Positions 10,195-27,197 of a stretch of DNA of 64,000 nucleotides are shown here, in pieces; positions within the stretch are counted from its first letter, which is position 1, and every line of letters starts with the position of its first letter. The translations under genes were made by a program, and so were the position numbers. The DNA is from Chlorobium sp. (GTDB taxonomy: Bacteria > Bacteroidota > Chlorobiia > Chlorobiales > Chlorobiaceae): the NCBI GenBank assembly GCA_005862225.1, contig SZXV01000002.1:620001-684000 (forward strand). Direction: 5' to 3'. A model generated the notes under the pieces. It did no database searches. It was not told the DNA's origin and was given only the letters and a program-made list of their open reading frames with translations.

Positions 10195-11574
10195 ATGATT
10201 ATTACCGTTAATCCTGCAACTGAAGAGCCGATTGCCGAGTATCAGACGATGACCTCCGGTGAGATCGAAGAAATTTTAGAGGTATCCCTGCGAGATGCGC
10301 TTTTATGGAAAAGAGTGTCAATTCCTGAACGCAGTGTGTTGATGAGGCGTCTTGCTGCGCTCATGCGTCGTCAGAAAGATCGTCATGCAGCGCTGATAAC
10401 CCGTGAAATGGGCAAACCACTTGCGCAGGCGGTTGCTGAGGTTGAAAAATGTGCATGGGTCTGTGATTTTTATGCCGACAATGCAGTGTCATTTTTGAAA
10501 CCGGAAAAGAGCGTTCTTGATGAAGGCGTACGGGGAGTGGTGAAATTTGAGCCAATTGGTCTTGTGCTTGGCATTATGCCCTGGAATTTTCCCTTCTGGC
10601 AGGTGTTTCGGTTTGCGGCACCGGCAATCATGGCTGGTAATGGTATTATTGTCAAACACGCTCCGAGTGTTACCGGATCAGCGATTGCCATTGAAACGCT
10701 GTTTCGTGAAGCAGGGTTTCCTGAACATCTCTATAGAACGGTTCATGTTGCCGTTGAGGAAGTTGATTCTATGACGGCCTTGATGATTGAGCATCCTGCT
10801 GTTCAAGGCATCTCAGTGACAGGAAGTACTGCGGCAGGACGTGCCGTTGGCGCCAAGGCAGGCAGAGCTCTTAAAAAAAGCGTGCTTGAGCTCGGTGGCA
10901 GCGATCCTTACCTTGTGCTTGATGATGCCGATATTTCACAGGCAGTTGCCATCTGTGCATCGGCCCGTCTTCTCAATTGTGGTCAAAGCTGTATTTCCGC
11001 AAAGCGCTTTATTGTTCATTCTTCAGTCATAAAAGAGTTTGAGTTGCTTCTTTTACAACGAATGCAGTCTGCTGTGATGGGTGATCCCTTTGATCGCGCT
11101 GTTGAAATTGGGCCGATGGCTCGCCAGGATCTTCGTGAGCAGTTGCACAGTCAGGTGTGCAGGAGCGTTCTTCAGGGAGCCCGCTTGCTTTGCGGAGGCG
11201 CAATCCCTGAAGGAAAAGGTTTTTTCTATCCTCCCACGCTTCTCTCGGGAGTGCAAAAGGGGATGCCAGTCTACAGTGAAGAGACATTCGGGCCTGTCGC
11301 AACACTTATTGAAGTCGCCGATGAGGATGAGGCCATACGAATTGCCAACGATACTTCTTATGGGCTGGGTTCAGCAGTTTTTTCCCGAAATATTGAAAGA
11401 GCCCTTGCTGTAGCGGATCAGCTTCAGACAGGGAACTGTTTTGTCAACAGTTCGGTAAAATCGGATCCCAGGTTGCCTTTTGGCGGTGTGAAAGAGTCTG
11501 GATATGGACGTGAACTGTCGCTGTATGGAATACATGAATTTGTCAACATAAAAAGCCTCTGCTTTTCAGGATAG
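10195..11574 (+). CDS. NAD(P)-dependent aldehyde dehydrogenase, succinate-semialdehyde type
   Basis: A 459-residue aldehyde dehydrogenase most like short succinate-semialdehyde dehydrogenases (GabD/YneI type). Visible motifs: MPWNFPFWQ before the cofactor site, SVTGSTAAGRAVGAKAG, the general-base Glu in LELGGSDP (about residue 232), the nucleophilic Cys in NCGQSCISAKR (about 266), and EETFGPVATL. It would oxidise succinate semialdehyde or a related short aldehyde to the acid; the substrate is inferred from family resemblance. The best-spaced ribosome site (caagga) serves an ATG at 10188 that opens only a 7-codon frame overlapping this start. A 224-base AT-rich gap and the giant autotransporter follow. 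Confidence 0.9.
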   Translation: MIITVNPATEEPIAEYQTMTSGEIEEILEVSLRDALLWKRVSIPERSVLMRRLAALMRRQKDRHAALITREMGKPLAQAVAEVEKCAWVCDFYADNAVSFLKPEKSVLDEGVRGVVKFEPIGLVLGIMPWNFPFWQVFRFAAPAIMAGNGIIVKHAPSVTGSAIAIETLFREAGFPEHLYRTVHVAVEEVDSMTALMIEHPAVQGISVTGSTAAGRAVGAKAGRALKKSVLELGGSDPYLVLDDADISQAVAICASARLLNCGQSCISAKRFIVHSSVIKEFELLLLQRMQSAVMGDPFDRAVEIGPMARQDLREQLHSQVCRSVLQGARLLCGGAIPEGKGFFYPPTLLSGVQKGMPVYSEETFGPVATLIEVADEDEAIRIANDTSYGLGSAVFSRNIERALAVADQLQTGNCFVNSSVKSDPRLPFGGVKESGYGRELSLYGIHEFVNIKSLCFSG

Positions 11575-11798
11575 ATCATTTTTCCGTTTCAGCAGAAATT
11601 AAGGATTTGATAAAAGAAATTATTAGCTATAACTTAAGATATAAGAAGAGAACGCATTATTTTGATGTTTTAAGTCTTTATATTATAGCGTTTTATATTT
11701 TTATCTTAACTATCTTGTTCTTTTCCTTTCGACTACAGTTTAGAATCAGCGCTCGGTTTATGCGTGTATATTAACTCATTTTTATCGTGGAGAAGATT

Positions 11799-14700
11799 AT
11801 GCCCAGCTCCTTTTCTTTGTCTCTTGGCAAGCTTTATTCATGCAGACAATCGATATATCGAGTTACTAAAGGTCTTCCCCCATTGATTTTTGCCTTGTTG
11901 TCCTCAGTCTTGGAAAGATGTTTTCTGCAGTTCCAGAAAAATCGTGTTTTGCTCAAAGCGATTTTCACACCAACTCTTATTTCTTCTATCCTCCTTATCG
12001 GATTATTCCTGATTGTCGATACGAAAAATGTTTTTGCTGCAAACACCATCGTAAATTTATCTGGCGACTCCAGTCATGAGTATGATGTCGAGGTCGGTGC
12101 AGTGCCGGGAAATGGTTCTGGTAAGTCCGTTGTGGCTTCTTCTGGAAATCCTCTTGATGTTACCATTGATGTCAATGGAAACTATAGTGTAACTCCGGGA
12201 GCTCCGGACGGTACCACCCTCATTATAACCGAGGCATCTTCTGGACCATCAGGTAGTTCTGGACCCTTAGTGAATTTGACCGTAAATACCGGTTCATATA
12301 AGGTCACTCCTGGCGCATTGGTTCCCAATGGTATAACAGCCGCAGTTCAGGGGGTATCCAAAGGATCGAATGGCGGCAACGGGGGAGATACCTATGTCGC
12401 GGGTAACGCTGGTGACGGAGGCACAGGCGCAAACGGTGGGAGTGTCACGGTCACACTCAATGGCAGCGCTTCTGCTACCAATGGAACAGGTTTAGCAGCC
12501 TTGAGTCTCGCTGGTAATGGGGGCAATGGAGGTAGTGCCTATGTTATAGCAGGGAGCTCTGGCAGTGGAGGGTTGGGTGGTTACGGCGGGGACGCGACTG
12601 CGACCCTCTCTAATCTCAACAGTTCTGTTTCTACAGTTGGTAATAATTCTGTTGGTGTTCTCGCTTTCAGTCAGGGCGGCAATGGAGGATCGGGTGGCGG
12701 CGGCGGAGGTCTTGTCTATAGTGCCGGTGGCGGTAGCCCGGCAGGCAGAGGTGGTCATGCATTAGTAAGTACTGATGAGGGGACATCAATTACGACCACA
12801 GGTGACTACTCCTACGGCATTGAGGCGCGCTCTCTTGGTGGAGGTGGTGGCTCCAGCTCTGGCGGTTTCGGTCTCTTCTATTCTGGTGGAGGCGGGGGTA
12901 GTACGGGTGGCAATGGCGGTATGGCCGAGGTGAGTGCCAGAGGTTTAATAACAACTTCTGGTAATTACGCGCAGGGTATTTTGGCCCAGTCTATTGGTGG
13001 GGGCGGCGGTGATGCAGGGACATCCCTGGGTTTGGTTGCCTTGGGTGGAGATGGTTCTGCAGGCGGTAGCGGCGGCACTGTACAGGTAGGAGTTGCCAGC
13101 ACAGGAAGCGTTAGAACGTCAGGTTTTGGTGCCAACGCCATTGAGGCACAGTCTATTGGCGGAAGCGGAGGAAATGGCGCAAGTTCAGGTGGACTGGTTT
13201 CTCTCGGTGGCAAAGGTTCTGACACGACGGTTGGAGGCGCAGTTACAGTATCGAACAGCGGGATGCTTACAACGGCAGGTGCCCAGGCGGCGGGTATTCT
13301 GGCTCAGTCAATCGGCGGCGGAGGCGGCAACGGCGGCACTGCCGCAGGTCTGTTCGCGGCTGGCGGTAGTGGTGGCAGCGGCGCTGACGGCGGCAGTGTG
13401 ATCGTCAGTAACGGGGGCAATATTTCTGCAGGCACAAACGGCCTTGTTTCAGCCAATTCTCCTGGCATTCTGGCTCAGTCGATTGGCGGCGGTGGAGGTA
13501 ACGGCGGGGGTGCTATTGCAGTTGGGCCAGGTATCAGTGCAGCTTTTGGGGGCGATGGCGCCGGAGGCGGAAAAGGCGGAAGCGTCGCCATTAAGCGGGA
13601 CAACATCGATCAGAATTTAGCTACAGCTTACCATATAAATACATACGGCGACCAGTCATCCGCTGTGGTGGCGCAGTCGATAGGCGGTGGCGGCGGCAAT
13701 GGGGGATTTGCTGTTTCCGCTTCCGGTGGTGCCCTTTTTAGTATAGCCATTGGTGTTGCAGGTTCCGGTGGGTTCGGTGGAGATGGTGGTTTGGTCAGTG
13801 TGGGGACGAAAGGAACGCTTTCGACCGTTGGTTCAAATTCTGATGGTATTCTGGCGCAGTCGATAGGCGGCGGCGGTGGTAATGGAGGATTTTCTGTTTC
13901 TGCAAGCGTTGGTGGTCTCGCCGGTGTTTCGGTTGCCGTGGGAGGAAGCGGTGGTACTGGCGGCAATGCCTCGGATGTGACAGTTTCAAATCTGAGCAAT
14001 ATTGATACCTATGGTGCCAATTCGTATGGAATTGCAGCGCAATCACTTGGCGGAGGTGGCGGTAACGGAGGGTTTACTGCAGGAGGAGCAATTGGCGCCT
14101 TGGGTGTCAGTGTAGGCGTCGGTGGAAAAGGGGGTTCAGGGGGATCGTCCGGCACGGTGACGGTGAACAGCTCCGGATCAATTATCACCTGGCGAGATAA
14201 CTCTACCGGTATTCTGGCGCAATCGCTGGGCGGTGGCGGCGGCAATGGCGGTTTTTCAGCCATAGGCACTCTTTCTCTTGCGGGAAGTGTTTCTGTCGGT
14301 GTTGGTGGCTCAGGCGGCATCGGACAGATTGCTGAAGACGTTATTGTCACTGCTGATGGTGGCGGTCAGTCGCTCTTTACCAGTGATTATTCTCTTGTTA
14401 CGTTTGGTCAAAATGCTGACGGTATCCTGGCACAGTCAATCGGCGGAGGTGGCGGTAACGGTGGTTTTGCCGGTACTCTTGCTCTCAGTGGTTCCGCAAG
14501 TGCCGGGATTTCACTTGGTGGCAGTGGCGGCATTGGAAACAGTGCAGGTACTGTCAGTGTGACAAGTGGTAATACTACGTTTCATAACAATATTTATACT
14601 GATGGAGATAATTCCAATGGTATTCTTGCGCAGTCGATCGGAGGTGGTGGTGGAAATGGTGGTTTTGCAGTATCGCTTTCCGGCTCGCTGCAAGGTCTCG

Positions 14701-17700
14701 GTTCTGCGGCGGTCACTCTCGGTGGGAATGGCGGAAGCGGTGCAACCGGTAATAGCGTTATAGTCAATAGTATCGGCAATATTAAAACCAACGGTGATAT
14801 GTCGGCCGCTATTTTTGCGCAGTCGGTCGGCGGTGGCGGAGGTAATGGCGGTTTCAGTGCAGCACTTTCCGCCAGCACCGGATTTTTTGGCGGCGCAGTG
14901 GCAATCGGCGGTTCGGGCAGTGGTGGAGGCAATGGCGGCAGTGTCATCGTGAACAGCACGGGCGATATTCAGACATCCGGCATGCAGTCTTCTGGTATTT
15001 TAGCACAGTCGGTTGGCGGCGGCGGTGGCAACGGTGGTTTTGCGGGATCGGGAGCTCTTTCTTTTGGCGGCGTTTCAGCGGCGGTCGGGCTTGGTGGAAG
15101 TGGCTCAAGTGGCGGTGATGGTTCTACGGTGGACGTTACCAGTATTGGAAACATTACAACTACCGGCGATGAGGCAAGCGCCATCATTGCGCAGTCGGTT
15201 GGCGGCGGCGGAGGTAATGGAGGTTCGACCATCGGCCTGTCGCTTGGAGCTTTGGCGGGAGCGAGTGTCAACATTGGTGGCAAGGGCGACAGTGGTGGCA
15301 ATGCTGCAGCAGTTACCGTGCATTCTGCCGGCAATCTGTCAACAGGTATAGAAGGAGCTGCTGGCAATGATGCCTATGGTATTCTGGCGCAGTCGATTGG
15401 TGGTGGTGGCGGCAATGGCGGTTTCAGCGGAAATATTACTTTTGGTGGTCTTGCGGGTATTGGTGTTTCTGTTGGTGGTTCCGGTGGTTCCGGCGGTAAA
15501 GCGGATCAGGTAATTGTAACGGGTTCAGGCAATATCAGCACATTTTTTGATAATTCCAGCGCTATCCTGGCGCAGTCGCTCGGTGGCGGTGGCGGCAATG
15601 GCGGATTCAGTTTTTCGGCTGCGGGTTCTGCTTCCTTTGAGGGGATTGGTGCAGCGGGTGCTGTTTCGGTTGGCGGTTTTGGTGGTACGGCAGGAGCGTC
15701 GTCAGTCGTCACCGTCAACAATACGGGCACGATCCTGACACAGGGTTTTAACTCTCATGGAATTGAGGCGCAATCTCTGGGTGGCGGCGGCGGCAATGGC
15801 GGTCTTTCTGTCTCTGGAGCATTTACGGTCGGCGCAGTGGGAATAGGTGTCTCGGTTGGCGGTTTTGGTGCTGGCGGCGGAGATGCTGGCGCGGTCATGG
15901 TTAATAGTTACAGCACAACTGGTTTTAATTCTCCAGTCTATGGAATTACTACATTGGAGACCGATGGCGACCAATCGAATGGTATTTTTGCGCAATCCCT
16001 TGGTGGTGGCGGAGGTAACGGAGGCTTTTCGGCAACAATCGGTGTTGCATTGCAGGGAGCAGCCGCTGGTGTTTCGGTCGGCGGATTTGGCTCCGGTGGC
16101 GGAAACGGTGAAGTGGTATCGGTTACAAGTTATAATAATATTCTGACGCAGGGAGACAAATCCAATGGTATCCTTGCCCAGTCAATCGGTGGTGGTGGCG
16201 GGAACGGCGGTTTTTCGATCGGACTCTCCGGTGGCTCAGAGTTTGGAGGTTCGGTTTCGGTTGGCGGTTTTGGTGCTGGAGGCGGAGATGCCTCTTCAGT
16301 GACAGTGAAGAACTATGGCACAATATGGACAAAGGGTGCTGATTCCAATGGTATTGAGGCACAATCTCTCGGTGGAGGCGGCGGCAATGGCGGATTCTCG
16401 ATTGCAGGTGCGTTTACGACAGGCTCGGCTGCTCTTGGTGTTTCTGTTGGTGGTTTCGGTGCTGGCGGCGGAGATGCTGGTGCTGTTGAGGTTGACAGCT
16501 ACGCCAAGGCGAATGGTGGCGTACCTGTCTTGATTGCGTCTGCGATGCTCACTCTTGAGACTGATGGCGACCGTTCGAATGGTATTCTGGCTCAGTCAAT
16601 TGGCGGCGGTGGCGGCAATGGTGGATTTTCCGGTGCTGGAGCTCTTTCTCCTGGCGGTGCTGCCATTGGTGTTTCGGTAGGAGGTTCTGCGCTTGGTGGC
16701 GGCGGTTTGGGTAACACAGTTACTGTAACAAGCGTTAATAATATCCTGACGCTGGGTGACAAGTCTAACGGTATTCTTGCGCAATCTATTGGCGGCGGTG
16801 GTGGAAACGGTGGTTTTTCGATCGGACTTTCCGGAGGTTCTGAATTTGCGGGGGCGCTCTCTGTTGGCGGTTTTGGTTCAGAGGGAGGAGATGCCTCTTC
16901 AGTCACTGTCCAGAACTTTGGCACAATATGGACAAAGGGTAATGATTCAAATGGTATTGAGGCTCAATCTCTTGGCGGCGGCGGGGGCAATGGCGGATTT
17001 TCGATTGCCGGTGCTTTCACGACAGGCACGGCTGCTCTTGGGCTTTCTGTGGGCGGTTTCGGCAATGGGGGCGGAAATGCCAGTGCTGTTAAGGTTGAAA
17101 GTTACTCCCATGCACTCAATATTGCTCCTGTTGCAGGAATATTCACCCTTGAGACCGATGGCGACCGTTCCAACGGTATTCTGGCTCAGTCAATCGGTGG
17201 TGGCGGCGGCAATGGCGGATTTTCCGGTGGATTGAGCGCTTCGACTTCAGGCGGTGCTTTCACAGCTTCTGTTGGCGGCTTTGGTGCTGGCGGTGGCAAC
17301 GCAGGAATTGTTACGGTTACCAGCTATAATAATATATTGACGAAGGGTGAAGATTCTAACGGCATACTGGCTCAGTCACTCGGCGGTGGTGGAGGAAACG
17401 GTGGCTTTTCGATTGGCTTGAGTGGTGGCACTGATTTTGCCGGTTCACTTTCGGTTGGCGGTTTTGCGACTGGGGGTGGTGGTGATGGCAGTACTGTGAC
17501 GGTCAATAGTGTCGGTACAATCAAAACAGGGGGAGACCGCTCGAATGGTATCGAGGCGCAATCAATCGGTGGTCGCGGCGGTAATGGAGGTTTTTCACTT
17601 GCCGGCTCTTTTGCACTTGGCAATGCAGGTTTGAGTGCAACTATTGGTGGTGCAGGCTCTGACGGTGGTCTCGGAGGAGATGTCACCGTCAACAGCACAA

Positions 17701-20700
17701 ATATCATTACCGATGCTATTGCGACCATAGAGACGACAGGCCAGAGTGCCAACGGCATTGAGGCGCAGTCAATCGGCGGCGGCGGTGGTAATGGTGGCTT
17801 TTCTGGTGCTTTCACTGCTACGGCAGACGCCAAGGCCTCTTTGTCTCTCAGTGTTGGTGGTTTTGGTGCTGCTGGTAATAGTGCAGGAGCTGTTAATCTT
17901 ACAAGCGTTGACAACATCCTGACCCATGCAGACGGATCGAACGGAATACTGGCGCAGTCTGTGGGCGGCGGCGGCGGGAATGGAGGGTTCAGTTTTGCTG
18001 GCACACTTTCAGTACCGGAAGGTAACAGTTTAAGTCTTTCGGCTTCTCTTGGCGGTTTCGGCGGTTCTGCTGGTGATGCTGGCACGGTCATGGTCGCATC
18101 TACCGGTCGCATCTCTACCCTTGGGAATCATGCCGATGGAGTGGTTGCGCAATCTCTTGGTGGTGGTGGTGGTAACGGAGGTTTGAGCGTAGCAGGAACT
18201 TTTAATTTTGCAAGTGCCAATAATGTTCCTTCGATTACCGCTTCTGTAGGTGGATTTGGTGGCTCTGGTGGCGCTGGCCATGATGTGAGCGTCACACGCA
18301 TTGGTGATACCGTAACGATTAGTGATGAATCGGTTGGTATCCTGGCTCAATCAATCGGTGGTGGTGGCGGCAATGGAGGGTTGAGCGTTGCAGGATCTAT
18401 TGGTGGGCCGGATTCAAAGCAGATTTCGGCATCTGTAGGTGGATTTGGCGGAGCTGGCAGCGAGGCTGGCATAGTAACGGTAAACAACACTGGCAATATT
18501 AAGACAGGCTCTTCGTCAGTTCAGAATCAGCAAATCGCCGAACTTGGCACAGTATTTGACAAGGTCACCGTAATTACTGGTCGTAATTCCGATGGCATTC
18601 TGGCGCAATCGATTGGTGGTGGTGGTGGTAATGGTGGTTTTTCATTCAGCGGAGCGGTAGCTCCTACAGGTGAAAATACGAATGTCAACGTCGGCCTAAC
18701 TGTCGGGGGATTTGGGGGTGATGGAGGAACCGGTGACAATGTTAATGTTACCAACCACGGTTTGATTCAGACTATCGGACCTGCTGCCAACGGCATTGAG
18801 GCACAATCGATCGGCGGTGGCGGTGGCAATGGCGGCAGTGCGCTTACAGGATTGCTCGCTGGAGGTGATGCCCAGGCTGGAAAAGCTGTTAATGTTGCTG
18901 TTTCCGTTGGTGGTATGGGAGGCGACGGAAATATTGCAGGAGATGTCCTGGTTGAGCAGTACGGTGGAATTCTGACCGAAGGAGCGGGATCAAACGGTAT
19001 TCTCGCGCAGTCAATTGGCGGCGGTGGCGGTAACGGCGGTGGTGCTAATTCACTTTCATTGCAGCTTGGCACTTCCTGTACGTTTTCTTTATTTGGCCTT
19101 GTGACCAAGGTCATCAGCAGTGTCAAGGCACCGAAGAATCCCAGCGTGAATGTTCAGGTTGATATTGGTGGCTGGGGTGGTACGGGTAATGACGCTGGCA
19201 ATGTGACGGTCACCAATCATGATTTTATTACAACAACCGGCAATGCTTCTGCGGGCATTATGGCGCAGTCAATCGGCGGCGGCGGCGGCAATGGCGGTCA
19301 GGCCATCGTAGGATTAAACGGTATGTTCCCTGGCGCAGAGTATGTTGATTATGCCATCACGGCTGTGACTTTGCCTATCAGTACGACAGGCTTATTGCAG
19401 GGATTGGGCAGATTCACGCTCGGAGGTTTTGGCGGAGCAAGTGGTGACGGTTTTGCTGTCAATGTCACAAACAATGGTTTGATTCAGACATCTGGTTCCG
19501 ATGCATACGGAATCTTCGCCCAGTCGATCGGTGGTGGCGGCGGCATAGGCGGTAACGCCTCGTCGGGTATTACAGGTTTGCTTAGCATCGGTGGTGGCGG
19601 TGGCGCAAGTGGTGATGGAGGTGCAGTCACGGTTATCAATAAGCCATCGCTAACAGCCACGGCCAATATTACAACTACAGGTTACGGTTCAACGGCAATT
19701 TTTGCCCAGTCGGTTGGCGGCGGCGGCGGTAATGGCGGATCGGCAGGAGGACTTATCTCTCTTGGTGGCGGTCCACGTTCCTGGATTCCTGGAGAGGTAA
19801 CGGCTTCAGCGGGTAATGGCGGTACTGTCTCTGTGAGCAATGATGCTACCCTGCATACCACAGGTGGCAATGCCGACGGCATTGAAGCCCAGTCAATCGG
19901 CGGCGGTGGCGGTAACGGTGGCAGCTCCGGACTTTCCGGGATAGCTGTCGGAGGCAAAGGCGGGGCCAGTGGCGATGGTGGTGACGTTACGGTTACCAAC
20001 TCGGCAACAGCGAAAATTGTAACAGAAGGAGCTGCTTCTGACGGTATCTTTGCCCAGTCTGTCGGCGGCGGTGGTGGCAATGGCGGTGGTACTGGGCTTG
20101 GGGTTGTTACTATAGGAGGAAACGCCAGCGGCGGTGGCAATGGTGGTCGTGTGACGATCAACAGTTATGGTACGGATGCTCTATCGATCAAGACAACAGG
20201 TGACGATGCAGTCGGTCTTTTTGGGCAGAGCATAGGCGGTGGTGGTGGGAATGGTGGCGCCACATTTATCTCGGCGGTCGGGGTCGGTGGAAAGGGTGGC
20301 TCAAGTGGTAATGGCGGCGAGGTTGATATCACCAACACCGCCTGGATAAGCACTTCAGGCAAGGGTTCGGATGCGATCCGTGCCCAGTCCATAGGCGGTG
20401 GCGGCGGTTCTGCAGGAGGCGTCTCCGATTCTGGCTTAAACGGTATAGGACTGATTGTCTCGGTTGGAGGTTCCGGTTCTGGCGGTGGAACAGGCGGTCA
20501 GGTCTCTGTTGATAACGCCAACAAACTGCATACAGTCGGTGATGCGGCAAACGGTATTTTTGCCCAGTCAATCGGCGGTGGCGGCGGCATAGGTGGTGGT
20601 GCCATTGGGGCTGTTGTTGTTGGCGGTAACGATGGTCAGCAAGGAGACGGTGGCGACGTGACGGTCATGAACAGGGAATATGGAATAATCTGGACCCAGG

Positions 20701-23700
20701 GTTCAATGGCCAACGGTATTTTTGCCCAGTCGGTAGGTGGAGGCGGCGGTGTTGGTGGTGGAAACTCTGCGACTGATCTCCTTGGCTTCAAGACGATCAT
20801 TGGTGGTAACGGCAGCGGCGGCGGTAATGGTGGAGCTGTGACTGTTGATAACTATAGCCGGATTGAGACCGATGGTTTTGCATCGCAGGTAATATTGGCG
20901 CAATCTGTGGGTGGCGGTGGAGGCAACGGGGGGGTTGCTGGTGGTGCTGGCGCTCAATTTTCAGCACAGTCTCTTGATGTGGCCGTTGGCGGAAATGGCG
21001 GCAGTGGTGGAAATGGCGGCGCTGTTATCGTCAATAATTATCAGTCAGGTACTCTTGTGACCAATGGAGCCAATTCTACGGCCATTTTTGCCCAATCGGT
21101 TGGTGGCGGTGGTGGTAACGGAGGTGGCGCATTGACAGGTAGCGGAGGAACCAGTACAGCGTCTGTGATTCTTGGCGGCGATGGTGGCGGCGGCGGCAAC
21201 GGTGGTAACGTGACGGTTGTCAACAATGGTCACATCGAGATCAATGCCAATAACTCGATTGGTATTATGGCACAATCGGTTGGTGGCGGCGGTGGAACAG
21301 CAGGCTCGGCGCTCGGTGTGGCTGTTGTACCGGTCTCCATCGGTGGTCAGAACGGCGTTCTTGGAACTGGCGGCGATGTCAGCGTTACCAATACCGGATC
21401 TATAATCATTAATGGTGATAATTCTGTTGGTATCTTCGCGCAATCGGTTGGTGGCGGCGGCGGTCTCGTCCAGCCAGGCGGCGGAGCCAGCAGTCTGGCC
21501 CTGCTCAATGGCGGTAATGGGATAGGAGGTACTGTTACTATCAATAATACGGCAGGTTCCATCACGGTCACTGGCGCCAACAGTGTCGCACTGTATTCGC
21601 AGAGTGTTGGTGGTGGTGGTGGTGCTGTTGGGCTTGCCTCCGATCCTCCGGGACAGATTGGCGCATTCCTCTTTTCCGGTTCGTCAGGGGGTCTGGGGGC
21701 TGCTGATGACACCATTATCAACCAGACAGGAGACCTGATTGCTCATGGAGTCAATTCGATTGCACTGATGGCACAGAGCGATGCGCCAGGTGGTACTGGA
21801 AACATTATTGTCAATATCCTGAATGCAGGGTCAACACCAAGCAACATTGAGGGAGGCAGCGACCAGGGAGCTGGCGTCTATATCCTGAATGGTGCTGACA
21901 ATTGGCTCAATAATCACGGGATAATTACTACGGTTCTGGGTGTTGACGGTTTTGCCGTACGCGCAAATTCAGGTAATGATAATATCGATAACTTTGGTCG
22001 GGTAATCGGTTCAGTGGATCTTTCAGTTGGTCGGGGTACTGATGTTAACTCCTTCCATAATGAGGAGCATGCAGTTTTCGACTCAGGTGTCACCGTTTAT
22101 TTGGGTGCAGGCAACCTGTTGACCAATGATGGCTTGCTGAGGCCAGGCGGATGTCAGAATGTGCTGACAACCAACCTTACCGGGGATTTTCTTCAGACGT
22201 CAAACGGCACCTATGGGGTCGATCTTGATCTGAGGAACCAGATTGCAGACAGACTGAATATTACCGGGACCGGCAATGTTTCGGGCGCCATAACTCTTAA
22301 CCTGATTGAGCCTGAAATTTATGCTGGATATGCTTTGCCAGGTCAACATAACAATGTGTTGATATCTGCAACAGGCGGAGTGTCTGATAACGGTATAACC
22401 TTTCTGGCACCCAATACGGTGGTTGCACACTATTCACTGCTCTACCCGAATCTGACAGATATTGACCTGAATTATGTGATTGATTATTCTCCTTCCGGTC
22501 TGACGCAAAATCAGCATTCAGTTGGCAACGCAATTAATCAGATACAACTGGCTCAAATATCGCCAGCGTTCAGGCCTGTTGCAAGTGCGTTATTTTTTCA
22601 ACCGGACACGCCCACACTTGCAAGGATTTATGATTCACTATCGGGTGAAGGAACGTTACAATTCCAGCGGGTTGGCTTTTTGGCAAACGATATGTTTTTT
22701 AAAGCCATTGCTCACAGGACAGAATATTGGCTTTCCAAAGATACCTATGACTCCTCCGGTCACTCTTATTTTGACCCATCCAGGGCCAATGGTATGCCAC
22801 GAGGGTCAAATCGCAATTGGCGGGTATGGATGAATCAATACCACGAAAGTGGATGTTTTGATGGTGATCCTGTCATTGGGTCGGCAAATTTTAATGATCG
22901 CGGTGATGGTTTTGCTTTCGGACTTGACAAGCAGATATCGTGTAACACATTGATTGGTGTTGCTGCGGGCCATAGTCGATTTTCATTCAATGTGCCTGAT
23001 CGTGAGATGAGCGGTAATGTTGATGCGCTGCATATCGCAGGCTATGGCGCGATACTCCAGAACAATTATTATGTTACTGCTTCTCTGGGGTATGATCATT
23101 TTAATAATGACGAGAAACGACATGCCTTCATTCCTGGTGTTTCGATGGATTTTCCGTGTGGAAACCAAATGAATATATCAGGGTTTGATGAATATCTTTC
23201 TGGTGTATTTCAAAGCTCTTCTTTTAGCGCTGATGTTGAGGCTGGTTATAAAATTCAGCTCAATACCGTTGATGTTACACCATTTGTAGGCTTAAAGTTT
23301 GGATCGATGTCTATGGATAGTTTTACCGAGACCAAAATGTGGGATGGCATGAGTCAGATCGGGTTATCCTATGATCATCGTATCATCAATTCGTTGCCAC
23401 TGCGACTCGGTATGCAACTGAAAACGAAAACTGAGCTTTCTTCTGATGCGCTCTTGTCAGTAGCAGTCAGTGCCGCATGGAAGCATGAATTCGAGCCAGA
23501 ACGGTCGATAAAAAGTTCGTTTATCACCGCGCCGGGTTTTGATTTTGTAATACAGGGATCACAGTCAGCAGTAGACTCCATGCTTAGTGGTATCGGATTA
23601 AACCTGACCATCAAAAAAAGCTGTGCACTGTTTGTGAATTTCCAGTGCGATACTTTTGGTGTTGGTCAAAGCTATGCCGGAATGGCAGGTTTACATATTT

Positions 23701-23708
23701 CCTGGTAG
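11799..23708 (+). CDS. giant autotransporter (type Va) with glycine-rich repeat passenger
   Basis: The frame encodes 3,969 residues from ATG 11799, which has ggagaag 7 bases upstream; the GTG at 11787 in the ORF track lies in that ribosome site. The N-terminus has two hydrophobic stretches (about 27-40 and 58-75), the second ending at VFA-AN, a likely signal peptidase site near residue 80. The passenger consists of nearly fifty repeats of 60-90 residues, each carrying G-I-x-A-Q-S-[ILV]-GGGGGNGG, then a VSVGGxGGxGG strand and a V-T-V-x-x-x-G-x-I strand, the pattern of a beta-solenoid. Repeats fade near residue 3300. The last 280-300 residues form an autotransporter beta-barrel ending in an aromatic residue (HISW). 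Several Cys lie in the barrel, which is uncommon. Function is likely adhesion or surface coating. It is followed by a strong terminator and appears to be transcribed alone. Confidence 0.93.
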   Translation: MPSSFSLSLGKLYSCRQSIYRVTKGLPPLIFALLSSVLERCFLQFQKNRVLLKAIFTPTLISSILLIGLFLIVDTKNVFAANTIVNLSGDSSHEYDVEVGAVPGNGSGKSVVASSGNPLDVTIDVNGNYSVTPGAPDGTTLIITEASSGPSGSSGPLVNLTVNTGSYKVTPGALVPNGITAAVQGVSKGSNGGNGGDTYVAGNAGDGGTGANGGSVTVTLNGSASATNGTGLAALSLAGNGGNGGSAYVIAGSSGSGGLGGYGGDATATLSNLNSSVSTVGNNSVGVLAFSQGGNGGSGGGGGGLVYSAGGGSPAGRGGHALVSTDEGTSITTTGDYSYGIEARSLGGGGGSSSGGFGLFYSGGGGGSTGGNGGMAEVSARGLITTSGNYAQGILAQSIGGGGGDAGTSLGLVALGGDGSAGGSGGTVQVGVASTGSVRTSGFGANAIEAQSIGGSGGNGASSGGLVSLGGKGSDTTVGGAVTVSNSGMLTTAGAQAAGILAQSIGGGGGNGGTAAGLFAAGGSGGSGADGGSVIVSNGGNISAGTNGLVSANSPGILAQSIGGGGGNGGGAIAVGPGISAAFGGDGAGGGKGGSVAIKRDNIDQNLATAYHINTYGDQSSAVVAQSIGGGGGNGGFAVSASGGALFSIAIGVAGSGGFGGDGGLVSVGTKGTLSTVGSNSDGILAQSIGGGGGNGGFSVSASVGGLAGVSVAVGGSGGTGGNASDVTVSNLSNIDTYGANSYGIAAQSLGGGGGNGGFTAGGAIGALGVSVGVGGKGGSGGSSGTVTVNSSGSIITWRDNSTGILAQSLGGGGGNGGFSAIGTLSLAGSVSVGVGGSGGIGQIAEDVIVTADGGGQSLFTSDYSLVTFGQNADGILAQSIGGGGGNGGFAGTLALSGSASAGISLGGSGGIGNSAGTVSVTSGNTTFHNNIYTDGDNSNGILAQSIGGGGGNGGFAVSLSGSLQGLGSAAVTLGGNGGSGATGNSVIVNSIGNIKTNGDMSAAIFAQSVGGGGGNGGFSAALSASTGFFGGAVAIGGSGSGGGNGGSVIVNSTGDIQTSGMQSSGILAQSVGGGGGNGGFAGSGALSFGGVSAAVGLGGSGSSGGDGSTVDVTSIGNITTTGDEASAIIAQSVGGGGGNGGSTIGLSLGALAGASVNIGGKGDSGGNAAAVTVHSAGNLSTGIEGAAGNDAYGILAQSIGGGGGNGGFSGNITFGGLAGIGVSVGGSGGSGGKADQVIVTGSGNISTFFDNSSAILAQSLGGGGGNGGFSFSAAGSASFEGIGAAGAVSVGGFGGTAGASSVVTVNNTGTILTQGFNSHGIEAQSLGGGGGNGGLSVSGAFTVGAVGIGVSVGGFGAGGGDAGAVMVNSYSTTGFNSPVYGITTLETDGDQSNGIFAQSLGGGGGNGGFSATIGVALQGAAAGVSVGGFGSGGGNGEVVSVTSYNNILTQGDKSNGILAQSIGGGGGNGGFSIGLSGGSEFGGSVSVGGFGAGGGDASSVTVKNYGTIWTKGADSNGIEAQSLGGGGGNGGFSIAGAFTTGSAALGVSVGGFGAGGGDAGAVEVDSYAKANGGVPVLIASAMLTLETDGDRSNGILAQSIGGGGGNGGFSGAGALSPGGAAIGVSVGGSALGGGGLGNTVTVTSVNNILTLGDKSNGILAQSIGGGGGNGGFSIGLSGGSEFAGALSVGGFGSEGGDASSVTVQNFGTIWTKGNDSNGIEAQSLGGGGGNGGFSIAGAFTTGTAALGLSVGGFGNGGGNASAVKVESYSHALNIAPVAGIFTLETDGDRSNGILAQSIGGGGGNGGFSGGLSASTSGGAFTASVGGFGAGGGNAGIVTVTSYNNILTKGEDSNGILAQSLGGGGGNGGFSIGLSGGTDFAGSLSVGGFATGGGGDGSTVTVNSVGTIKTGGDRSNGIEAQSIGGRGGNGGFSLAGSFALGNAGLSATIGGAGSDGGLGGDVTVNSTNIITDAIATIETTGQSANGIEAQSIGGGGGNGGFSGAFTATADAKASLSLSVGGFGAAGNSAGAVNLTSVDNILTHADGSNGILAQSVGGGGGNGGFSFAGTLSVPEGNSLSLSASLGGFGGSAGDAGTVMVASTGRISTLGNHADGVVAQSLGGGGGNGGLSVAGTFNFASANNVPSITASVGGFGGSGGAGHDVSVTRIGDTVTISDESVGILAQSIGGGGGNGGLSVAGSIGGPDSKQISASVGGFGGAGSEAGIVTVNNTGNIKTGSSSVQNQQIAELGTVFDKVTVITGRNSDGILAQSIGGGGGNGGFSFSGAVAPTGENTNVNVGLTVGGFGGDGGTGDNVNVTNHGLIQTIGPAANGIEAQSIGGGGGNGGSALTGLLAGGDAQAGKAVNVAVSVGGMGGDGNIAGDVLVEQYGGILTEGAGSNGILAQSIGGGGGNGGGANSLSLQLGTSCTFSLFGLVTKVISSVKAPKNPSVNVQVDIGGWGGTGNDAGNVTVTNHDFITTTGNASAGIMAQSIGGGGGNGGQAIVGLNGMFPGAEYVDYAITAVTLPISTTGLLQGLGRFTLGGFGGASGDGFAVNVTNNGLIQTSGSDAYGIFAQSIGGGGGIGGNASSGITGLLSIGGGGGASGDGGAVTVINKPSLTATANITTTGYGSTAIFAQSVGGGGGNGGSAGGLISLGGGPRSWIPGEVTASAGNGGTVSVSNDATLHTTGGNADGIEAQSIGGGGGNGGSSGLSGIAVGGKGGASGDGGDVTVTNSATAKIVTEGAASDGIFAQSVGGGGGNGGGTGLGVVTIGGNASGGGNGGRVTINSYGTDALSIKTTGDDAVGLFGQSIGGGGGNGGATFISAVGVGGKGGSSGNGGEVDITNTAWISTSGKGSDAIRAQSIGGGGGSAGGVSDSGLNGIGLIVSVGGSGSGGGTGGQVSVDNANKLHTVGDAANGIFAQSIGGGGGIGGGAIGAVVVGGNDGQQGDGGDVTVMNREYGIIWTQGSMANGIFAQSVGGGGGVGGGNSATDLLGFKTIIGGNGSGGGNGGAVTVDNYSRIETDGFASQVILAQSVGGGGGNGGVAGGAGAQFSAQSLDVAVGGNGGSGGNGGAVIVNNYQSGTLVTNGANSTAIFAQSVGGGGGNGGGALTGSGGTSTASVILGGDGGGGGNGGNVTVVNNGHIEINANNSIGIMAQSVGGGGGTAGSALGVAVVPVSIGGQNGVLGTGGDVSVTNTGSIIINGDNSVGIFAQSVGGGGGLVQPGGGASSLALLNGGNGIGGTVTINNTAGSITVTGANSVALYSQSVGGGGGAVGLASDPPGQIGAFLFSGSSGGLGAADDTIINQTGDLIAHGVNSIALMAQSDAPGGTGNIIVNILNAGSTPSNIEGGSDQGAGVYILNGADNWLNNHGIITTVLGVDGFAVRANSGNDNIDNFGRVIGSVDLSVGRGTDVNSFHNEEHAVFDSGVTVYLGAGNLLTNDGLLRPGGCQNVLTTNLTGDFLQTSNGTYGVDLDLRNQIADRLNITGTGNVSGAITLNLIEPEIYAGYALPGQHNNVLISATGGVSDNGITFLAPNTVVAHYSLLYPNLTDIDLNYVIDYSPSGLTQNQHSVGNAINQIQLAQISPAFRPVASALFFQPDTPTLARIYDSLSGEGTLQFQRVGFLANDMFFKAIAHRTEYWLSKDTYDSSGHSYFDPSRANGMPRGSNRNWRVWMNQYHESGCFDGDPVIGSANFNDRGDGFAFGLDKQISCNTLIGVAAGHSRFSFNVPDREMSGNVDALHIAGYGAILQNNYYVTASLGYDHFNNDEKRHAFIPGVSMDFPCGNQMNISGFDEYLSGVFQSSSFSADVEAGYKIQLNTVDVTPFVGLKFGSMSMDSFTETKMWDGMSQIGLSYDHRIINSLPLRLGMQLKTKTELSSDALLSVAVSAAWKHEFEPERSIKSSFITAPGFDFVIQGSQSAVDSMLSGIGLNLTIKKSCALFVNFQCDTFGVGQSYAGMAGLHISW
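12361..21790 (+). repeat. tandem GGGGGNGG-type coding repeats in the autotransporter passenger
   Basis: I count about 46-48 copies of AQS[ILV]GGxGG or close variants, spaced mostly 180-270 bases. The core Q-S-x-G-G-G-G-G-N-G-G is highly conserved, the linking strands vary, and the third residue before AQS alternates between L, E, F and others. In the middle, copies end GGF or GGL; near the C-terminal side copies end GGS, GGG or are broken. The third codon positions vary among copies (ggc, ggt, gga), so the core is kept by protein selection and is not a fresh DNA amplification. Confidence 0.92.
16131..17906 (+). repeat. higher-order tandem repeat of about 600 bases (three units)
   Basis: Three successive units begin with N-N-I-L-T at 16131, 16734 and 17325, giving lengths of 603, 591 and about 582 bases, all multiples of three. 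Each holds three basic repeats in fixed order: one with GGFSIGLSGG, one with GIEAQS...GGFS(I/L)AG, and one with GGFSG. The first two units are close copies (TIWTKG, GAFTTG and TLETDGDRSNGILAQS occur in both); the third has diverged. This shows that triplets of repeats were duplicated together. Confidence 0.88.
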
Positions 23709-23728: not shown

Positions 23729-23764
23729 AAAAGCCTCTGTATCAGGTGGATACAGAGGCTTTTT
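23729..23764 (+). terminator. intrinsic terminator after the autotransporter
   Basis: A perfect 15-bp stem, beginning aaaagcctctgtatc, with a 5-base loop (aggtg), followed by T residues on the plus strand and an A run at the other side. It therefore works in both directions, ending the autotransporter transcript and that of the converging short LuxR-type gene. Confidence 0.9.
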
Positions 23765-23792: not shown

Positions 23793-24296
23793 TCAGGATG
23801 CTACTGCGAGTTCTGAAAGGTAGGTCTTTATTGACTGGTGTTTTCCAAGGCCAAGCTTTTTATGCATTCTGTAGCGAATACTCTCCATTCCTCTTGTCGA
23901 AATGCCCACAGAACGACCAATCTCTTTTGTGTCGTAATTCAGCTTGACAAGAAGGCTTATCCTGAGTTCGCGCTGGTTAAGATTTGCATGTTTCTTCTGT
24001 AATTTCGACAAAAAGACTGAATCAGATTCCGTTAATTCGATATTCAGGCGTTTTTCGATAGTCTCAGTTTCAATCAGGCTCAAACATGAATCAGTCATCA
24101 TTCTTTTGACGCCGCTATCAATATCCAGCGAGTGTATCTGGTCAAGAAGATTACGTAAAGAATTTGTTTTTTCAGCTATAGCTGTTGAAACTCTTGTCAG
24201 TTCCAAATCCTGATTTGCAATTCTCATTCTTAGCTCACCGATCTCTTTTTCATAATCGGGAATAGATTTTTTGTTCTGTTCTGCTTGTGCGTTCAT
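23793..24296 (-). CDS. short LuxR-type regulator (coiled coil plus HTH), truncated paralogue
   Basis: A 167-residue protein with a coiled-coil region (about 15-50) and a C-terminal LuxR/GerE-type helix-turn-helix (LNQRELRISLLVKLNYDTKEIGRSVGISTRGMESIRYRMHKKLGL). It aligns from its second residue (NAQAEQNKKS) to residue about 243 of the 408-residue regulator at 25720-26946 (NAQAEVNKKS) and onwards to the end. It therefore has the DNA-binding half but lacks the roughly 240-residue N-terminal part. Over about 45 bases near the 3' end the two genes are nearly identical. The start lacks a clear ribosome site. It converges on the autotransporter, which suggests but does not prove a regulatory link. 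Confidence 0.85.
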   Translation of the reverse strand: MNAQAEQNKKSIPDYEKEIGELRMRIANQDLELTRVSTAIAEKTNSLRNLLDQIHSLDIDSGVKRMMTDSCLSLIETETIEKRLNIELTESDSVFLSKLQKKHANLNQRELRISLLVKLNYDTKEIGRSVGISTRGMESIRYRMHKKLGLGKHQSIKTYLSELAVAS

Positions 24297-24798
24297 TGTA
24301 TTTAATCATCAGGGTTATTCTGTTTATGACATCATCTTTACGCTATTAATACGTTTTCCCGGTAAGTTCTTATAACAGCTTAAAGACATACCGGTTTTTT
24401 GGTGGCATCAAACTTTATTTTAGTGCACTGGAGAGCGATTTTACATCCGTTCATTACTATTCTTGACGTGTTCACAAAAGTAATATTTGTTTTTTTTTAA
24501 AGAAATGCAAAAAATATTCGTATTTCTATAAAAAATACTTTTAGTGTCATACTCTTCTGAAGTATAAAATACGTGTATTTTTTGGATATAATAGATACTT
24601 GATACTGTTTCTGATAGATTACGTTATTCGATTCAGCTACATTGTCAATGTTTGCTTATCAGGTTATTGATAGATTTTGGTAACTGTAAGTGACTTGATC
24701 ATAATTTATCTGGATTTCAAAATTATTTTTGCCTTGTCTCTTCATTTTCACTTATTCACAAAATTGATAAGCGGCATTTTCTTTATTTAGTTTACACA
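24297..24798. other. AT-rich divergent intergenic region with inverted repeats
   Basis: About 500 bases between the short LuxR-type gene and the lipid-kinase gene, which diverge. It is very A/T-rich. A cluster between 24509 and 24605 contains several ATAC/GTAT inverted motifs and a TATAAT at 24587-24592. I found no trace of the missing N-terminal regulator domain on the minus strand, and no small gene or RNA I can name. Confidence 0.55.
24566..24581. promoter_or_regulatory. candidate operator: AAAATAC-GT-GTATTTT inverted repeat
   Basis: Perfect 7-bp arms with a 2-base spacer lie 5 bases upstream of a TATAAT hexamer. A related, weaker element (AAATA-TTCG-TATTT) is at 24512-24525, and an interrupted ATAC...GTAT pair is at about 24549-24565. 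Dyad sites of this size suit a dimeric helix-turn-helix regulator, possibly one of the flanking LuxR-type proteins. In such AT-rich DNA, chance dyads are common, so this is a lead only. Confidence 0.35.
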
Positions 24799-25704
24799 AT
24801 GGTAAAAAATTTTTTCCGTTACATTTTTATTTTTAATCCCGCAGCAGACAAAGGGCGTGCTTTTCGCAAGTCGCAGTGGCTTCATGAACTGGTGTCTGGC
24901 AGAAAAGACTCTTTGGTGATAACAACAACTTATGCTGGTCATGCGGGTGATATTGCGCGTTGTGAGGCAAGAGAAAATATCTGTCTGATCGCTTGTGGTG
25001 GAGATGGGACGATTCATGATATAGTTAATGCTGTTGCTGGTGCCGGTATTACAATAGGGGTTTTACCGATAGGATCGGCCAATGATTTTATCAAAACGCT
25101 GTATCCTGATAAAATCGACTCCTTTGATATCACTCACTTTTATAATGCATCATGCAAAAATGTTGATCTTGGAAGTGTTTTTTATGGTAAAGCCGAGCAC
25201 CGTTATTTTGTCAATTCACTGGGGATCGGTTTGACCGGAAGTATTGCAAAGAGCGTTCAACAGACGACGTGGCTCAAAGGCGAATCTGGATACATATATG
25301 CTCTTTTGCGAGTCCTGTTTGATTATGTGCCATTGGCAATGACCATAAAGATTACTCTTGAAAATTCAATCATGGAGCTTCATGAACCTGTTTTTGCATT
25401 TTCAGTGTTGAATGGAAAAATTGAGGGCGGAAAATTCAGGATAGCTCCACATGCGGAATTATCGGATGGTTTCCTGGATGTCTGTATTCTCAAAGCAGTA
25501 CCTAAACATGAATTTTTTCGTTATGTTTTGAAATATCTGCGAGGGATACATATCACCGACCCACAGGTTATTTACTGCAAGGCAACGGCTGTTGAAGTGA
25601 TTCTTGAGAAGCCCCATGTTATGCACATGGATGGAGAGGTTTATGACAACATTTGTGGCAGGATTACGATTTCAGTCGTTTCAAATGGGCTTTCTGTGAT
25701 ATAG
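24799..25704 (+). CDS. diacylglycerol kinase family lipid kinase (YegS/BmrU type)
   Basis: A 301-residue soluble lipid kinase of the DAGK catalytic family, expected to phosphorylate diacylglycerol or a related lipid with ATP. It shows the N-terminal FIFNPAADKGRA strand-loop, the nucleotide-binding GGDGT motif (about residues 67-71), GVLPIGSANDF, and in the second domain NGKIEGGKFRIAPHAELSDGFLDV and HMDGE. Length and motif order are normal. It sits between the two paralogous LuxR-type genes, which are on the other strand, and converges with the longer one, their stops lying 15 bases apart. The lipid substrate cannot be read from the sequence. Confidence 0.9.
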   Translation: MVKNFFRYIFIFNPAADKGRAFRKSQWLHELVSGRKDSLVITTTYAGHAGDIARCEARENICLIACGGDGTIHDIVNAVAGAGITIGVLPIGSANDFIKTLYPDKIDSFDITHFYNASCKNVDLGSVFYGKAEHRYFVNSLGIGLTGSIAKSVQQTTWLKGESGYIYALLRVLFDYVPLAMTIKITLENSIMELHEPVFAFSVLNGKIEGGKFRIAPHAELSDGFLDVCILKAVPKHEFFRYVLKYLRGIHITDPQVIYCKATAVEVILEKPHVMHMDGEVYDNICGRITISVVSNGLSVI

Positions 25705-25719
25705 ATCACTCTTTCTGTT

Positions 25720-26946
25720 TTAACCGGCGAGTTCTGACAGATAGCTTTTTATCGACTGATGTTTTCCAAGGCCAAGTTTTTTATGCATTCTGTAGCGGAT
25801 GCTTTCCATGCCTCTGGTTGATAAGCCGATGGAGCGGGCTATATCTGCGGTGTCGTAATTCAGCTTTACAAGCAAGCTTATTTTCAGTTCACGTTGATTA
25901 AGGTGAGGAAATTTTGTCTGAAGTTTTGATAGAAAAAGTAAATCAGACTCAGTCATTTCAATGTCGGGCTGTTTTTCGAGCACTTTATTTTCTATAAGAC
26001 TCCGGCAGGAGTTGGCCATCTCTTGTTTAAGGTTGGGATCTATGTCAAGGGACTCTATCTTTTCAAGAAGATGACGGAAGCCATTCTTGCTGTCAGCTAT
26101 AGCTTTCGATATTTTGGCAAGTTCCATATTCTGTGTCTCGATTTTCCTTGTAAGATTGGTTATTTCGTTTTGCATATCGCGAGTTGACTTTTTGTTCACT
26201 TCCGCTTGTGCATTTGTCTTGATAACCATCTGGATGATTCGACTTTCAAAGTTTTGTTGAAGTAAATGTATTTCACTTTTCTTTTTTATCTCTTTTGCAA
26301 TGAGGTCTGAGCGCAGAGAGTCTATAGCCATGAAAAATGGATAATACGGGTTGCCCGGTGGCGGTGTTGTAATTTGTTCGTCAAGCATATTAAGCCATGA
26401 GATCCTTGCAATAGCCTCAAGAAACCGTTTTTTTATTGCAGGTTCGGGGTGGTTGTTCTCGGATCCGCAGTTCCCTGTTGCAAGTGTCCCCGCTTTAAAC
26501 GCAATCACTTTTTCAATGGAATCTTTATAAGTATCAGCCAGAATAACACAAACTTTTTCTGGAGCGACCGCCGCAAAAGTTTCTACAATGATACGCATGG
26601 ATTCGGGGATATTGTAAAAGCCTATGACCCCGAGCATCGGACTCCAGTTAAAAAAAAGATCGGTTATTGCCAGTTTGTAGTTAAAGGAGATGCTGGAGAT
26701 GTGAGCAAGATCAAACAGAATGTGAAACTGTTTGTTTATAAGATCAGATTCAGAGAGCACAACCTGCAACAGGTCAACGTCCATAAAGTCAAGAATAATA
26801 TCATGCTTTTCCTCAACCTCAACCCAGGTGTGAACGATATTATCATCAATGACGCTCATCCATTTGCTATACCCGGCACCAGGGTGATGACTTTTCCAGT
26901 GGTTTTTTTTTGTTGTTGCAAGTATTGGCCTTATTGGGCTTTCCAT
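25720..26946 (-). CDS. LuxR-type regulator with N-terminal sensor-like domain
   Basis: A 408-residue regulator. Residues about 1-165 form an alpha/beta domain (DNIVHTWVEVEEKHDI, DLAHISSISFNYKLAITDLFF, MLGVIGFYNIPESMRIIVETF) resembling the STAS-like input domains in some Bacteroidota and Chlorobiota regulators; I cannot name it with certainty. Residues about 240-300 are coiled coil, and about 340-405 a LuxR/GerE-type helix-turn-helix (LNQRELKISLLVKLNYDTADIARSIG). No receiver-domain phosphorylation motif is seen. Its C-terminal 165 residues are paralogous to the short gene at 23793. The start codon has no clear ribosome site. Targets are unknown. Confidence 0.8.
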   Translation of the reverse strand: MESPIRPILATTKKNHWKSHHPGAGYSKWMSVIDDNIVHTWVEVEEKHDIILDFMDVDLLQVVLSESDLINKQFHILFDLAHISSISFNYKLAITDLFFNWSPMLGVIGFYNIPESMRIIVETFAAVAPEKVCVILADTYKDSIEKVIAFKAGTLATGNCGSENNHPEPAIKKRFLEAIARISWLNMLDEQITTPPPGNPYYPFFMAIDSLRSDLIAKEIKKKSEIHLLQQNFESRIIQMVIKTNAQAEVNKKSTRDMQNEITNLTRKIETQNMELAKISKAIADSKNGFRHLLEKIESLDIDPNLKQEMANSCRSLIENKVLEKQPDIEMTESDLLFLSKLQTKFPHLNQRELKISLLVKLNYDTADIARSIGLSTRGMESIRYRMHKKLGLGKHQSIKSYLSELAG

Positions 26947-27197
26947 TGTCTTTTTTGTGGAGGGTTAAGCAATACTTATTGTTTCCTGATGTGTTATTGA
27001 ATAGTAATTACAGGAGTTAACCTGAATATAGTCAACAGTATTTACTTTATTAAAGGAAATAAAAACCAATTAATATCGCTTTTTTACAATAAAGCATTAG
27101 CCAGTCATATTCCCTCCTTTTTTTATATTCATTTATATCCGATTGATTATCATGATAGTCGGCACAGTTGGCCATTAACACAAAGGGTGTCTTGATT

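Follow-up and report, generated by a model that had tools for sequence, protein, structure and literature searches.

A conserved sensor-less member of a Chlorobiaceae regulator family, probably acting without its full-length relative

Introduction

GerE of Bacillus is a stand-alone LuxR-type helix-turn-helix (HTH) protein without a sensory domain, and in the way it acts it is the closest counterpart of the protein described here. A different kind of reduced regulator is represented by TrlR of Agrobacterium, a truncated LuxR-family antagonist that keeps the sensor part while lacking the DNA-binding domain (PMC3907764). The locus considered below lies in a 64,000-nucleotide stretch of a Chlorobium contig (SZXV01000002.1, positions 620,001 to 684,000; hereafter the window), where a gene for a 167-residue protein (P0001, 23793–24296, minus strand; the short gene), a YegS/DAGK-type lipid kinase gene (24799–25704, plus strand) and a gene for a 408-residue protein (P0002, 25720–26946, minus strand; the long gene) lie next to each other. 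All evidence presented is computational, and it confirms as real the three genes named in the original prediction from this DNA.

Like TrlR, the short protein is a truncated LuxR-family paralogue found beside a full-length regulator in one cell; however, its truncation is the opposite one, with the HTH kept and the sensor gone, and it also occurs without the full-length form. From GerE it differs in carrying about 56 coil residues and a linker before the HTH, and in that close full-length relatives survive. By predicted fold the HTH resembles those of the NarL/LuxR (GerE-type) regulators VraR, ComA and NarL, but the Chlorobium proteins have neither a receiver nor an autoinducer domain and their sequences do not reach the Pfam cut-off for GerE. 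With the STAS/SpoIIAA anti-sigma-factor antagonists the long protein shares the fold of its N-terminal domain, yet here this domain is fused to a coil and an HTH, and in this survey it was seen only in Chlorobiaceae. At this locus one can follow how a signal-responsive regulator became signal-blind through domain loss, since full-length relatives, the inherited promoter element and decayed codons are still visible in living species; moreover, in species with only the short form it can be tested directly whether a truncated regulator depends on its full-length relative.

Domain Architecture

An AlphaFold2 model of the long protein, built on a 43-sequence alignment (mean pLDDT 86.8), comprises a mixed alpha/beta domain at residues ~10–190 (26377–26919, minus strand), one helix of about 98 residues at 202–299 (26050–26343, minus strand) and an HTH at 333–407 (25726–25950, minus strand). 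The first of these, with pLDDT values of 86.8 and 88.2, was matched by Foldseek to SpoIIAA/STAS proteins with probabilities up to 1.00 and TMt up to 0.70; since the E-values are modest (best match 4hyl_B, probability 1.00, TMt 0.68, E 0.0066), the STAS likeness is at the level of fold only. The long protein has no Pfam STAS match at E<=1, and inspection of the A1 consensus by eye found no D-S-S-G-like signature with a phosphorylatable serine at the expected turn, which reads ISFNYK. The HTH is of the tetrahelical, C-terminal NarL/GerE fold, its Foldseek matches being the DNA-binding domains of VraR, ComA, GerE (among them PDB 6jqs) and NarL, with probabilities of 0.98–0.99 and TMt of 0.71–0.83 at modest E-values. 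As Pfam GerE scores only 16.3 bits in the short protein (a weak match, E=0.0076) and 12.7 bits in the long one against a gathering cut-off of 23.5, both are divergent relatives by fold rather than Pfam-level members of that family. Of 395 genomes sampled from the whole phylum, 78 contain the STAS-like domain, and every one of these belongs to Chlorobiaceae; searches of the library consulted turned up no paper on an architecture of STAS-like domain, coil and NarL-type HTH. Proteins of this architecture form a Chlorobiaceae-specific regulator family without an above-cut-off Pfam match.

As had been proposed, the short protein belongs to the same family but has no sensor: BLASTP aligns its residues 2–164 with residues 245–407 of the long protein, ungapped and at 65% identity (E=5e-73). 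It keeps the HTH (residues ~90–164, aligned to long residues 333–407; 23805–24029, minus strand) and part of the coil (residues 1–56, equivalent to long residues 244–299; 24129–24296, minus strand). The further proposal that it begins exactly where the coiled coil begins fails, because the helix predicted in the long protein spans 202–299 and the short start lies opposite residue 244, in mid-helix.

Origin and Conservation of the Short Gene

The near-identical 3' segments from which a fairly recent duplication or gene conversion had been suggested turn out to be of small extent. The DNA identity of the window pair is 53–72% per 20-codon block, with the single exception of codons 141–160 (53/60), and near-identity is confined to the last ~25 codons. 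Codons 141–160 encode the recognition-helix region, which at the protein level is nearly invariant throughout the family, so that purifying selection accounts for the similarity and gene conversion need not be invoked. Furthermore, orthologues of the short gene at more than 40 Chlorobium loci are 80–92% identical to it and thus closer than its neighbor in the window at 65%, and for the window pair dS is ~1.8, near saturation; a recent duplication or conversion is therefore ruled out. The short gene is evolving under strong constraint (dN 0.04–0.13, dS at least 0.8, dN/dS ~0.02–0.09), and in a tree of 101 rows it falls within a clade of 27 short genes (support 100/95), whereas the long gene belongs to a separate clade (the W-long clade, support 98/90), the short gene changing more slowly than the long one (branch lengths 0.085 and 0.40, respectively). 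On these sequence comparisons, the short gene is an old and strongly conserved regulator gene of green sulfur bacteria rather than a recent copy.

The lipid kinase gene (Pfam DAGK_cat 2.4e-19, YegS_C 1.3e-22) is a conserved divergent neighbor that adjoins the short gene in most contigs long enough to tell. Since the same long/short arrangement recurs in independent genomes, it reflects neither chance nor an assembly join, and no such join is seen at the short gene, which also has a conserved promoter-like element. In other Chlorobium species (for example at loci L059, L061, L063 and L081), a full-length gene occupies the short gene's side of the kinase, and the C-terminal half of these genes is 84–88% identical to the window short protein. 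The W-long genes, for their part, sit between the lipid kinase and a glmU-like gene.

The promoter-like element, ATTAC-N7-AACACGTCA with a fixed N7 gap, precedes all 47 short genes of the window type, the distance to the start being 131–376 nt for nearly all of them; the same element stands 54–65 nt before full-length genes such as those at L059, L066, L078, L080, L083, L086 and L110. In the window, its core (ATATTAC-N7-AACACGTCA) lies at 24464–24486 on the minus strand, and alignments place a conserved A/T-rich block (TACGAATATT..TTGC..) upstream of it (24487–24560, minus strand). Immediately 5' of the short start, 27 nt (24297–24323, minus strand) match the EHRITQM codons of full-length genes and constitute a decayed remnant of lost codons, with z>3 in 27 of 49 short genes. 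The retained element and these decayed codons together indicate that the short gene descends from a full-length one: it is a full-length gene minus the N-terminal part, with the upstream region kept. The loss may have happened once or several times, with 3–5 label changes on the trees and AU tests of a single clade giving p=0.46 and 0.32.

At the position of the short start, 43 full-length rows have Met in 21, Leu in 16, Ile in 4 and Thr in 2. A conserved internal translation start was considered for the full-length genes and rejected as a general feature, Met being present in only those 21 rows.

Role of the Short Protein

The original prediction cast the short form as a built-in antagonist or constantly active partner of the long one. 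As a general role this is contradicted by seven genomes of 97–100% estimated completeness (G036, G050, G051, G052, G063, G065, G080) that have at least one short gene and no full-length match, their contigs matching, in number and position, loci L084, L049, L039, L060, L037, L064 and L088. A sensor-domain profile that includes relatives with as little as 26% identity finds no match in them at E<=0.1, so that antagonism of the long form cannot be the general job of the short one. The main caveat is that these seven appear from matching records to be metagenome-assembled, which makes gene absences possible; the kinase–short region is contiguous in several of them. Conversely, a short gene is present in each of the 13 W-long genomes whose estimated completeness is at least 90%, and it is thus the long gene that is the optional partner. 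This constant company fits a functional link, but simple shared ancestry as well.

The best-supported reading of the role of the short gene, to which we give a probability of about 0.6, is that it encodes a stable, signal-blind DNA-binding regulator that works alone and arose from a full-length gene by loss of the sensor. Because it occurs even in species without the full-length version, it probably serves as an independent regulator and not as a built-in antagonist; genomic distribution supports action of the HTH without sensor or full-length partner, the activity itself being predicted. On this reading the ancestor was a full-length one-component regulator with STAS-like domain, coil and HTH, divergent to the lipid kinase; the sensor part was then lost with the old promoter region retained, and the new start lies at a codon that in many full-length relatives is an internal Met. 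The resulting protein would probably dimerize through the remaining coil and helices, and how strongly it is expressed would determine its output, with feedback plausible at the conserved element before its gene. In the long protein, the HTH is nearly identical and presumably under the control of the STAS-like domain, and in the window clade the two proteins may read overlapping sites. A more ambitious scenario may be sketched, which we regard as speculative and, taken as a whole, improbable: after loss of the sensor in place, the sensor-less form would have taken over as the conserved core regulator of the genus, with the sensor-bearing copies turning optional and faster-changing, and the Chlorobiaceae-only STAS-like sensor, linked as it is to a lipid kinase locus, may read the state of membrane lipids.

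The exact element occurs only once in its own genome, and a search there for a wider regulon gave matches at control level; within the window, no second copy with the fixed N7 gap was found. The element may be a promoter only and not an operator. AACACGTCA, at its fixed 7 nt from the ATTAC box, occupies the place where a transcription start might be expected. The lipid kinase gene shows no clear conserved promoter motif.

The strongest rival to the signal-blind regulator acting alone, possible though in our judgment unlikely, is competition at DNA, whereby in the window clade the short protein would occupy the operators of the long one and damp or preset its regulon without forming mixed oligomers. 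The 91% identity of the recognition regions in the window pair makes competition at shared sites possible in this clade, the last HTH helices being nearly invariant family-wide; besides the constant presence of a short gene in near-complete W-long genomes, a degenerate copy of the element (ATTAC-N8-AACACATCA, 26987–27008, minus strand) lies 62 nt before the long gene start. However, other W-type long genes do not preserve this copy well, and across loci the recognition regions of short and long proteins agree at 69–91%, shared operators being hypothetical.

Weaker than competition at DNA, and rather improbable, is the version in which short and long proteins pair through the coil, the short one being an antagonist or always-on partner. 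The kept half coil and linker could support such pairing, and the two genes lie within 3.2 kb of each other. Against this stand the seven short-only genomes, an average agreement of only 47% between the short coil and that of the neighboring long protein, and the slower change of the short gene compared with its supposed target. Nor is the short coil clearly more variable where the long form is missing: over residues 8–58 it is 82–86% identical to that of the window in the nearer short-only genomes and 71–75% in the more distant ones, against 80–84% in long-bearing genomes, and is thus comparably kept with or without the long form. A dominant-negative protein of the TrlR kind would lack the DNA-binding domain and co-occur with the partner it inhibits; the short protein retains that domain and is found where such a partner is absent.

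It could also be imagined that the sensor was lost because the short protein now receives input in trans, providing the DNA-binding arm of some other sensory system, such as a FIST protein and a hybrid histidine kinase encoded beside it in a sister group. At about 16 loci of the sister group (L064, L065, L069–L073, L075–L077, L079, L082, L084, L085, L087, L088), genes for a FIST protein (~401 aa; Pfam 2.9e-42) and a hybrid histidine kinase (~850 aa; HisKA/HATPase/REC) lie 3' of the short gene on the same strand. We consider such input in trans very unlikely: the short protein lacks a receiver domain and no FIST gene is present in the window genome, so that this reading would hold at best for part of the genus. 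Decay of the short gene into a fragment, or an artefact of assembly, may be dismissed: the gene does stem from a longer one by N-terminal loss, but its frame is intact and begins at the same start in dozens of assemblies made independently, and a dN/dS far below 1 likewise speaks against this reading.

Neighboring Genes and Further Homologues

The gene on the 3' side of the short gene in the window had been put forward as its possible target. This autotransporter-like gene (11787–23708) encodes a repeat-rich protein of 3973 aa and is separated from the short gene by a gap containing a 15-bp hairpin terminator (23729–23763); relatives have no such gene at that place. In about 20 of them the short gene directly adjoins a homologue of the window aldehyde dehydrogenase gene (10195–11574), and the autotransporter therefore looks like a lineage-specific insertion between the two. 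Being missing beside the short gene at those ~20 loci, it is not a conserved partner or target, and the single N7 element in the window likewise provides no second copy for it.

Several observations bear on other members of the family. In the window's own genome, a third match (C4:20547) is weak (E=0.012), and the stretch translated from L004 is stop-rich in the frame read. A tandem pair of short genes (L060:326–820 and 1296–1790) is present in a genome without a long form. Six genomes (G025, G030, G035, G039, G050, G081) each have several extra short homologues, mostly frames of ~160–190 aa with 35–56% identity to the long query, which suggests that sensor-less forms may have multiplied within the genus. 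Finally, the short paralogues at three loci (L104, L105, L106) are of another, second sensor-less type: they lie elsewhere, lack the conserved element and adjoin an RND-type efflux gene and a gene for a membrane protein of 426 aa that has no Pfam match.
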